A stretch of 49,163 bases of DNA from Paracoccus sp. (in: a-proteobacteria). Its GTDB lineage: Bacteria > Pseudomonadota > Alphaproteobacteria > Rhodobacterales > Rhodobacteraceae. The stretch lies in contig JAUNTL010000013.1 in assembly GCA_030538705.1 (NCBI GenBank), positions 1 through 49,163 on the forward strand, written 5' to 3'. This document shows positions 30,264 through 31,974 of this stretch, in pieces. The notes under the pieces are model-generated. The model saw nothing but the letters and a program-made list of their open reading frames with translations. It made no database searches and was not told the DNA's origin. Every line of letters begins with the position of its first letter. The first letter of the stretch is position 1. The translations under genes were made by a program, and so were the position numbers.

Positions 30264-31037
30264 TCAGGCGCTAAACAGGGCCTCGATCCGCGCGGCCTCA
30301 TCCGCCAGCCCCCATGGTGGGTTGACGACGAACATGCCCGATCCGACCATGCCGTGCCCCGGCTTCGCCGGTGGGAACCCCAGCTCGGACGACAGCGCCG
30401 CAGGGAAGGCCGCGCGCAAGCCGGTGACCATGGCGCGCTGGCGCCCGTCGCTCAGCAGCGGATACCACAGCGCCAGCGTGCCGACGTTCCACTTTCGCGC
30501 GATATCTTGCAAAAAGGCCGGAATGGCCGCGTAATCAGCCTTTACCTCATAGCTGGGGTCAATCAGCATCAGCCCCCGGCGCGGGGTCGGCGGCACAATG
30601 GCGCGCGCCATGGCAAAACCGTCCTGATGGTAAAGCCTCGCCCGGCCCGCGACAGCCGACAATGCCTGATGCTCGGCGGGGTGCAATTCCGCCAGATGGG
30701 CGCTGTCGCCGGGCCGCAGAAAATGCTGGGCGATCACCGGAGAGCCGGGATAGGCCCCCGGCCCATGGCCTGCACGCGTCTCGGACAGCGCCCGCATCAG
30801 CGGATGCGCGTCATTCAGCCATGCCGCGCGCTCGGCCCGGATGATGCCGGCATCGGCTTCGGCGGTTTTGCGCGCCTCGGGCGAGGTCAGGTCATAAAGG
30901 CCACGTCCGGCATGGGTCTCGATATAGGAAAGCGGCTTATCCTTGGCGGTCAGATAATCCAGCATCCATGCCAGAAGCGCGTGCTTGTGCAGATCGGCCG
31001 CGTTTCCGGCGTGATAAATGTGCTGATAGGACAACAT
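30264..31037 (-). CDS. rlmJ: 23S rRNA (adenine(2030)-N6)-methyltransferase
   Basis: Methylates A2030 of 23S rRNA. The 257 residues begin with the family hallmark MLSYQHIYHAGNAADLHKH, have the catalytic motif LMLIDPSYE (DPSY, an N6-adenine methyltransferase motif IV) and end NPPWGLADEA. Slightly shorter than the E. coli enzyme (about 280 residues), otherwise normal. It lies downstream of, and on the same strand as, the anti-Shine-Dalgarno hairpin array, separated from it by a terminator, so it probably has its own promoter within the 25 bases between them or depends on read-through. Confidence 0.95.
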   Translation of the reverse strand: MLSYQHIYHAGNAADLHKHALLAWMLDYLTAKDKPLSYIETHAGRGLYDLTSPEARKTAEADAGIIRAERAAWLNDAHPLMRALSETRAGHGPGAYPGSPVIAQHFLRPGDSAHLAELHPAEHQALSAVAGRARLYHQDGFAMARAIVPPTPRRGLMLIDPSYEVKADYAAIPAFLQDIARKWNVGTLALWYPLLSDGRQRAMVTGLRAAFPAALSSELGFPPAKPGHGMVGSGMFVVNPPWGLADEAARIEALFSA

Positions 31038-31062
31038 GCGCCCTTATCCACTGACCGGCCGC

Positions 31063-31105
31063 AAAAGAAAAGCGGCGGCGCCCAGGGAGGAGGGGGCGCC
31101 GCCGC
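31063..31105 (-). terminator. Intrinsic terminator formed by the last array hairpin
   Basis: On the minus strand a perfect 12-bp stem (GCGGCGGCGCCC / GGGCGCCGCCGC; plus-strand arms 31094-31105 and 31072-31083) is followed by TTTTCTTTT. Its loop contains CCTCCTCCC, so one structure is both the last repeat of the array and its transcription stop. Confidence 0.9.
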
Positions 31106-31136
31106 GTCAACGCTGGCCCAGGGAGGAGGAGGGCCG
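31063..31136 (-). ncRNA. CcsR-like sRNA module 5 (terminal)
   Basis: Hairpin one: short GGGCC/GGCCC stem with the motif at 31121. Hairpin two: a 12-bp perfect GC stem with the motif at 31085, followed by the U-run that ends the transcript. Confidence 0.75.
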
Positions 31137-31146
31137 CGGATGGGGT

Positions 31147-31209
31147 GCGATACAGGCGGGGAGGAGGATGCCCGCATCGCTGACACGACCCGGGGAGGAG
31201 AGGGCCGCG
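31147..31209 (-). ncRNA. CcsR-like sRNA module 4
   Basis: Hairpin one: a 9-bp stem with wobble pairs around the variant TCTCCTCCC (plus-strand motif 31193). Hairpin two: an 11-bp stem (plus-strand arms 31147-31157 and 31170-31180). It shares CCCGCATCGCTGAC with module 3 at a 70-base offset (31171 and 31241), so the two arose by duplication. Confidence 0.75.
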
Positions 31210-31217
31210 TATAGGGT

Positions 31218-31286
31218 GCGACGCAGGCGGGAGGAGGGTGCCCGCATCGCTGACGGCCGCCCCGGGGAGGAGGAGGGGCTGCCGTG
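31218..31286 (-). ncRNA. CcsR-like sRNA module 3
   Basis: Hairpin one has plus-strand arms ACGGCCGCCCC (31253-31263) and GGGGCTGCCGT (31275-31285). Hairpin two has an 11-bp stem with two G-U pairs (arms 31218-31228 and 31240-31250). Motifs are at 31265 and 31229. Module 4 is an exact 70-base shift of part of this one. Confidence 0.75.
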
Positions 31287-31298
31287 TCCGGTGTTCAG

Positions 31299-31373
31299 CG
31301 GCGCCCCCGCAGGGAGGAGAGCGCAGACGCCGCCGTCACCAGCAAGGCTCCGGGAGGAGGAGAGAGAACCTTG
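31299..31373 (-). ncRNA. CcsR-like sRNA module 2
   Basis: Two weaker hairpins with motifs at 31352 and 31312 (plus strand). Outer stems CAAGG/CCTTG and CGGCG/CGCCG hold larger irregular loops. The second loop has the variant TCTCCTCCC. Confidence 0.65.
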
Positions 31374-31383
31374 CCGTATCTGT

Positions 31384-31457
31384 CGGCGGCACCTCCAGGG
31401 AGGAGGAGGGGGAGGTGCCGCCTTAACCCGGACCCAGGGAGGAGGGAGGGTCGGGTA
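31384..31457 (-). ncRNA. CcsR-like sRNA module 1 (promoter-proximal)
   Basis: Two hairpins. The first pairs ACCCGACCC with GGGTCCGGGT (plus-strand arms 31448-31456 and 31426-31435). The second has a perfect 12-bp stem (plus-strand arms 31385-31396 and 31411-31422) and a 14-base loop carrying CCTCCTCCC. Confidence 0.75.
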
Positions 31458-31464
31458 TTCTGTC

Positions 31465-31689
31465 CTACTTGCCCCAGGCTGCCTGATTGGCGACCTGCGG
31501 GATCATGCTGCGCTCAATGCCCAGATCGGCCAGTTCGCGGGCCGAAAGGCGCGACAGCTCTGCAACCGTGGTGCGATACAGGGCGCGGCGCGCACGGCCT
31601 TCCTGAACGCGTGCAATCAGCCCCAGAATGCCGGTGCCGGCCTGCCGCGCCTCGCGGGCGCTCTGGGTGATGATGTCGGTCGATGCCAT
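31465..31689 (-). CDS. DUF1127 small protein, CcaF1-like
   Basis: A 74-residue basic protein. The C-terminal half, RRALYRTTVAELSRLSARELADLGIERSMIPQVAN, is a DUF1127 (YjiS-like) domain. In Rhodobacter sphaeroides the DUF1127 protein encoded just ahead of the CcsR sRNAs, CcaF1, binds RNA and helps mature those sRNAs; the same layout here supports the same role. The start at 31689 (MASTDIITQS) gives the length of that protein. An in-frame ATG at 31803 would add 38 residues without family similarity. The Shine-Dalgarno is weak (CAGGCAA). The hairpin array starts 7 bases after the stop, so mRNA and sRNAs share one transcript. Confidence 0.85.
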   Translation of the reverse strand: MASTDIITQSAREARQAGTGILGLIARVQEGRARRALYRTTVAELSRLSARELADLGIERSMIPQVANQAAWGK

Positions 31690-31974
31690 TTGCCTGATCG
31701 CTTCGTCTGCTTGTTTCGTGGTGGCGCTGTCGTCTTGCGCCGTTGGTATGAAGATGGCCGCGATGCTGCGGCTGCACAACATATATCCCTTCAATGCTGC
31801 CATGCAGAAAGTGCATCCCTGGGAAGAGGTGAACGAAAATGTGAGACGTCAGATGTCTGTCATGTCTGCGCCGCAGGGTTTGTAGGGCAGCGCTGGAGGC
31901 TGCACAGCCCGGATTTTTATCGGGTCAGGGCCACTGACCTGTTAGCGCCTATAGTTTAGCGGCACCGGTTCCAT

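Follow-up and report, generated by a model that had tools for sequence, protein, structure and literature searches.

What kind of element is the chain of hairpins that follows a DUF1127 gene on the minus strand of this Paracoccus contig? An earlier note, made from the letters alone, had described ten hairpins sharing an anti-Shine-Dalgarno loop and considered them relatives of the CcsR small RNAs (sRNAs) of Rhodobacter sphaeroides. We examined this array within the whole stretch of 49,163 nucleotides (the window) and in related genomes. In our view it is likely to be a CcsR/cuckoo locus, in which one RpoH-type promoter would drive a DUF1127 gene and a ten-hairpin 3′ UTR, the latter being cut into hairpin-pair sRNAs that block ribosome-binding sites. 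A literature search found no paper on a small RNA associated with DUF1127 in Paracoccus.

Ten hairpins behind a DUF1127 gene

The gene upstream of the array (31689-31465, minus strand, 74 aa) had been read as a DUF1127 gene, which its match to PF06568 confirmed (47.6 bits against a cut-off of 23.3, E 1.3e-12); judged by sequence and position, it is the counterpart of ccaF1. The array starts 8 nt past its stop codon, on the same strand. The order on the minus strand is DUF1127 gene, ten hairpins (31456-31072), TTTTCTTTT and a gene for an RlmJ/RsmJ-family methyltransferase (31037-30264). A plus-strand ORF spanning the array (31036-31959) was regarded as spurious, by judgement.

Between 31456 and 31072 we found ten hairpins, as described earlier. 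Their loops read CCUCCUCCC in eight cases (CCTCCTCCC at the DNA level) and the one-base variant UCUCCUCCC (TCTCCTCCC) in the other two, at 31312 and 31193. The minus strand of the window has 14 copies of the heptamer CTCCTCC, all of them within the array, and the plus strand has none. When one mismatch to CCTCCTCCC is allowed, the count over the whole window is not above chance (18 copies, shuffle mean 16.0; 32 of 100 shuffles reach 18), and the evidence therefore rests on clustering. The largest cluster of non-overlapping copies per 405 nt holds 10, whereas 200 shuffles of the window give clusters of no more than 2, and dinucleotide shuffling of the array, repeated 1000 times, never gives 10 (maximum 4). 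The predicted fold of the array is for the most part a string of separate hairpins, with an energy of -214.4 kcal/mol compared to -162.0 +/- 5.5 in shuffles (z -9.5; 0 of 100 as stable).

At the 3′ end of the array, hairpin 10 with its anti-Shine-Dalgarno loop (12 bp) is followed by TTTTCTTTT, and together they form a predicted Rho-independent terminator (31063..31105, minus strand). A consensus terminator scan gave one terminator-like site, at 31083-31070, which taken alone is not above chance since shuffles give 0.6 on average.

Arrays of the genus: size, promoter, stems and pairs

Of 114 Paracoccus genomes, among them that of the window, 110 contain a triple-loop pattern, although a backward-read version also matches in most of these genomes and is thus a poor control. 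Four genomes lack the pattern. Two of them, G007 and G051, nevertheless have 7-hairpin arrays, and in a third, G102, loops of an array lie at the ends of contigs, so that such genomes were rejected as an array-less contrast for the target analysis below; in the fourth, G072, no array was seen. We inspected the first 30 loci of this survey, one for each of 30 Paracoccus genomes. A DUF1127-like ORF, judged by eye, precedes the hairpins in 25 of them, its stop codon lying 20-65 nt before the first loop; 10 of these ORFs coincide with Pfam DUF1127 matches over the cut-off and the other 15 were assigned by eye.

With the window added, the 26 DUF1127-linked arrays have 8-14 hairpins, and the count is even in 25 of the 26 (L038 was counted as 4 + 6 across a wide gap; L058 has 11 and, by eye, a weak twelfth). 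Ten hairpins, or five units, are the average for this Paracoccus sample. The module count that the earlier note had proposed thus speaks against its own idea of an expanded array: 8-14 is normal here, and another genus reaches 26. In Paracoccus, the number of units changes in steps of one pair.

Five loci (L033, L042, L053, L054 and L056, with 8, 3, 3, 3 and 7 hairpins) share this promoter but have no DUF1127 gene between it and the hairpins. The distance from the predicted start to the first loop is 15-16 nt in four of them and 77 nt in L033, which suggests that these RNAs would be free-standing, like rhizobial NfeR1. In other arrays of the genus (among them L036, L040, L052 and L058; not in the window) an extra small hairpin lacking the anti-Shine-Dalgarno loop lies between hairpin blocks. 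Among 43 long gaps, 32 contain a GCCGC/GCGGC stem, often with a CCCATCT-like loop, one a GCCAC/GTGGC stem (a paired change), four other 5-bp stems and six none.

The predicted promoter of the window, TTGTGC-N16-CCATCTT, lies at 31751..31779 (minus strand) and is part of a conserved pattern. It would start transcription at 31743, 54 nt upstream of the ATG. The pattern TTG-N2-CA-N17-A-N2-T, drawn from the conserved upstream block of these loci themselves, is found in 29 of 31 loci (the 30 and the window) and has no hit in the reverse-read control (21700 nt). With the first T set at -36, which is our placement, its elements are TTG from -36 to -34, A-12 and T-9. In the part of PMC3441632 available to us, TTG matters for both RpoH factors, T-9 is critical for RpoHI and A-12 essential for RpoHII. 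We predict a promoter of RpoH type and infer the sigma factor itself. Upstream of it lies a palindrome, CTGC-ATG-GCAG (31797..31807, minus strand), whose 8-mers GCATGGCA and CATGGCAG occur in 20/31 and 18/31 upstream regions. It is a possible regulator site and presumably resembles the PhaR binding motif.

The stems had been said to differ and to compensate. Arm swaps in the window bear this out: mean duplex energy is -22.1 kcal/mol for own arms versus -12.4 when arms are swapped among the ten hairpins. For eight of the ten, the own 3′ arm pairs better than any of the nine foreign ones; for each of the other two, one foreign arm is at least as good. Compensation was also sought across species, as the earlier note had suggested. 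In swaps between the 26 DUF1127-linked arrays, own arms were better in 85-93% at six of eight hairpin positions. At the last two positions the figures were 0.39 (-2, no effect) and 0.70 (-1, weak), in our reading because the sequence there is too conserved to tell. Examples of paired changes among species are found in hairpin 2 (CGGCATCCTC/GAGGATGCCG, CGACACCCTC/GAGGGTGTCG and TGGCGCCTCC/GGAGGCGCCA); since these helices were chosen by the fold, they are an illustration rather than a test.

Such stems bear on whether the hairpins have a regulatory role. A terminator-like chain with no role but to shield the DUF1127 mRNA or to insulate the gene that follows would agree with the position directly behind the gene and with the terminator-like last hairpin. 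We hold this to be very improbable, since the loop sequence is kept while the stems change and since, in 5 of the 30 congeneric loci, the promoter runs into the hairpins with no DUF1127 gene between.

The ten hairpins of the window can be drawn, from their linkers, as five pairs, all on the minus strand: pair 1 (31385..31456) with hairpins 1 (31456-31426) and 2 (31422-31385); pair 2 (31290..31375) with hairpins 3 (31375-31341) and 4 (31340-31290); pair 3 (31218..31285) with hairpins 5 (31285-31253) and 6 (31250-31218); pair 4 (31147..31210) with hairpins 7 (31210-31183) and 8 (31180-31147); and pair 5 (31072..31142) with hairpins 9 (31142-31108) and 10 (31105-31072). The same division is seen in the genus sample. 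In 27 arrays of at least 7 hairpins, with pairs counted from the 3′ end, the median length of the bare linker is 2 nt inside pairs and 7 nt between them; this set includes two arrays without DUF1127 and leaves out L038 and the three 3-hairpin loci. When each linker is extended by 3 nt upstream and 6 nt downstream, 58 of 123 linkers between pairs contain AUACG, compared to 0 of 146 within pairs. The flanks were added since part of the motif is often base-paired in the fold; in bare linkers AUAC(G) occurs in 8/123 and 0/146, respectively. In the window, exact AUACG with flanks is present in two of the four between-pair linkers. The 3′ hairpin is the stabler one in 140 of 148 pairs (mean -23.4 vs -16.1 kcal/mol). 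Parity, linker length, stability and AUACG thus support the hairpin pair as the unit of the array, and between-pair linkers would be the cutting sites.

A recent duplication between modules 3 and 4, at an exact offset of 70 bases, had also been claimed. It stands for 26 nt, where 25 of the 26 are identical at offset exactly 70 (31229-31254 and 31159-31184), but the wider match of 43 nt has offset 71 and 79% identity. Hairpin 8 contains a near copy of the 26 nt around hairpin 6.

Relation to CcsR, ar14 and other RNA families

At gathering scores, Rfam gave no match in the window. Models were also scored with E-values up to 10, a covariance search that the earlier note had called for. The CcsR1 model (RF02791, 83 nt) aligns over positions 1-83 with pair 1 at 31460-31381 (42.9 bits, E 5.4e-9) and at full length with pair 5 (31143-31067, 29 bits, E 6.7e-5) and, weakly, with pair 3 (31288-31212, 20.6 bits, E 0.021) and pair 2 (31380-31293, 19.8 bits, E 0.035). 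Pair 4 has no CcsR1 match up to E 10 and only a 6C match (E 0.89). The borders of these matches nearly coincide with the pairs drawn from linkers. The model ar14 (RF02344) matches the window twice, with E 7e-6 and 1e-5. Kinship with CcsR/cuckoo RNAs is thus supported by E-values of both families, while the scores stay below gathering: 42.9 bits at best against 65.3 for CcsR1, and 40.5 against 58.8 for ar14. We ascribe this to divergence of the Paracoccus stems from CcsR. Over 11 stretches, including an own-genome stretch without array in which nothing matched (L335), all 31 CcsR1 matches with E <=0.01 were under the gathering score (best 54.6), and five ar14 matches were above that of ar14. 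6C RNA is an actinobacterial family with C-rich paired hairpin loops, of which we found only weak model matches (RF01066, best 29.4 bits against a gathering score of 47; E 0.1, close to chance).

According to the available portions of PMC8625941, PMC10253847 and PMC8307010, the 3′ UTR of the R. sphaeroides DUF1127 gene ccaF1, which stands behind an RpoHI/RpoHII promoter, contains CcsR1-4; the earlier note likewise gives four such sRNAs. The same portions of PMC10253847 and PMC8625941 describe ccaF1-CcsR1-4 as co-transcribed and the precursor as cut by RNase E with CcaF1. The cuckoo motif is defined by 2-4 hairpins with a conserved loop motif (PMC4504443, in part), and RS0680a of R. sphaeroides has two stem loops, each bearing the motif (PMC3927594, in part). 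The two loops per CcsR sRNA that the earlier note gives are described for RS0680a. The Paracoccus locus shares with the R. sphaeroides locus (CIN1) a DUF1127 gene, tandem CCUCCUCCC RNAs, two-hairpin units, a predicted promoter of RpoH type and a terminal terminator. It differs in having five units instead of four, here deduced from sequence. We take RS0680a to be the earlier name of a CcsR RNA. CcsR RNAs repress flhR and pyruvate dehydrogenase genes.

Features that mark the CcsR/cuckoo family are found here: the loop motif in every hairpin on variable stems, two hairpins per RNA unit (by linkers, parity and stability in the genus, and by CcsR1 on four of five pairs, two of them weak), a short DUF1127 gene directly upstream and, by its sequence, a Rho-independent 3′ terminator. 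Loops, DUF1127 gene, fold, CcsR1 alignments and conserved promoter together support a locus of CcsR/cuckoo (CIN1) type with five predicted sRNAs, and the five two-hairpin units proposed at the outset are supported too.

The array might also act uncut, as a single multivalent RNA that binds several mRNAs, or RNAs of other kinds, through its ten loops, or that serves as a sponge for purine-rich RNA. Nearly identical loops on different stems, in a fold that is mainly a chain of separate hairpins, would suit such a role. Regular two-hairpin units, distinct linkers and asymmetric stability argue against it, as does the cutting of the R. sphaeroides precursor into CcsR1-4 (PMC8625941 and PMC10253847, both in part). 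We consider an uncut array quite unlikely.

The rhizobial ar14/NfeR1 RNAs of the cuckoo family have the identical loop motif in every hairpin and variable stems too. In the accessible text, however, NfeR1 is free-standing, with three hairpins and its own sigma-70 promoter, and no free-standing three-hairpin RNA was found here, where ten hairpins follow a DUF1127 gene as a 3′ UTR array. AbcR1/2 (ar15) also carry anti-Shine-Dalgarno motifs and act on ABC transporter mRNAs; they differ by two motifs per RNA, three stem loops and Hfq binding (PMC7143759, in part).

Arrays occur outside the genus as well. A stricter triple pattern was found in 111 of 296 genomes of a family sample. In the first 30 loci of this sample the largest arrays have 3-26 hairpins (median 8; at least ten in 7/30), and no even-number rule was seen outside Paracoccus (16/30 even). 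The array of 26 anti-Shine-Dalgarno hairpins belongs to another genus (L296; G265:C1, about 334950-336120). Its tandem repeat unit of about 140 nt comprises three hairpins and is nearly identical from copy to copy, which looks like a very recent expansion.

We also observed ar14-type anti-Shine-Dalgarno RNAs in phage contigs of IMG/VR (L182-L292; for example L183:1019-1101, L196:191-273 and L200:1798-1885). Of 111 pattern-matching contigs, 55 have a 3-4-hairpin array with a mean energy of -14 or lower. These contigs hold 56 arrays, 38 of them distinct, and a few with 30-nt spacing may be due to chance. A match to a phage DNA helicase lies within 500 nt of 40 of the 56, many having a match to a Cas4-type exonuclease in the same stretch. 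Eleven of 12 contigs tested exceed the Rfam ar14 gathering score. One 191-nt phage-array query had no match in a phage record collection, and a literature search found no report of ar14-type RNAs in phage contigs.

Candidate targets and array dose

GGGAGGA, the complement of UCCUCCC, occurs 3-11 nt before an ATG at 56 sites of the genome, compared to 4 in a backward-read control. An ORF of at least 80 aa is opened at 49 of these sites (7 dropped). All 49 were scanned, and 20 belong to solute-binding-protein Pfam families (these 20 were also scanned singly). Two other strong sites served as controls. AAGGAGG (55 sites, 43 ORFs kept, 12 dropped) and CGGAGGH (30 of 120 sites taken, 24 ORFs kept, 6 dropped) gave two and one solute-binding proteins, respectively, among the matches listed; these came from the 25 commonest families listed from alignments and two candidates scanned singly, so a hidden member is possible. 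The bias is thus 20/49 versus 3/67 among the matches listed (Fisher P about 2e-6).

Four other Paracoccus genomes gave 8 solute-binding proteins in 24 GGGAGGA ORFs (from 30 of 341 sites, with 6 dropped); Pfam scans covered 10 of these ORFs, and the others were judged by eye. In four genomes of other genera without detected array there were 6 in 21 (30 of 400 sites, 9 dropped; 8 of the 21 scanned, the others judged by eye), which indicates that the bias is wider than the array and not tied to it. The preference of solute-binding-protein genes for GGGAGGA, compared to two other strong sites, thus extends to relatives without detected array.

The loop and the anti-Shine-Dalgarno sequence of 16S rRNA share CCUCC and differ beyond it. 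As mimics of the 16S rRNA 3′ end, the loops could occupy Shine-Dalgarno sites generally during stress, in keeping with the shared CCUCC and with the excess of GGGAGGA before ATG (56 against 4 backward). We find such general damping of translation unlikely: the loop departs from the rRNA end outside CCUCC, and GGGAGGA precedes a special class, solute-binding proteins, more often than other strong sites do (20/49 vs 3/67).

The CcsR/cuckoo reading agrees with what is reported for rhizobia. NfeR1 silences ntrB via its CCUCCUCCC motifs (PMC10746234, in part), and periplasmic substrate-binding proteins are the products of its two other validated targets (PMC8844928, in part), with which the bias found here concurs. 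In the available text of these two papers, predicted and tested ar14/NfeR1 targets include substrate-binding-protein mRNAs, as the GGGAGGA sites suggest for Paracoccus.

In the mechanism that we favour, the RpoH-type promoter would yield a single transcript with the gene of a DUF1127 RNA-binding protein and ten anti-Shine-Dalgarno hairpins in its 3′ UTR. An endonuclease, probably RNase E helped by the DUF1127 protein, would cut the linkers between pairs, as the units and the R. sphaeroides system suggest. Five sRNAs of about 64-86 nt would result, the 5′ hairpin usually being the weaker of the two. Each loop could pair with purine-rich ribosome-binding sites and block translation during stress, above all for genes of solute-binding proteins and metabolism, and five similar units would give more RNA output per transcript. 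Processing, stress induction and dose effects in Paracoccus are extrapolated here from R. sphaeroides and by inference. Tentatively, array length might be an evolvable dose setting: whole AUACG-bounded pairs would be gained or lost, tuning sRNA number in each species against a nutrient-uptake regulon that matches the loop over seven bases.

The Paracoccus locus is now placed in the CcsR/cuckoo family by tests and not by recall. The two-hairpin unit rule and the survey of hairpin numbers are the most useful additions; module borders and the candidate boundary element AUACG are defined and directly testable. The overlap between the loop complement and the ribosome-binding sites of solute-binding-protein genes, a bias that does not need the array, links the arrays of Rhodobacterales to the targets of rhizobial NfeR1 and AbcR. 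Finally, since arrays in the family sample range naturally from 3 to 26 hairpins, a comparison of strains could address the dose question.
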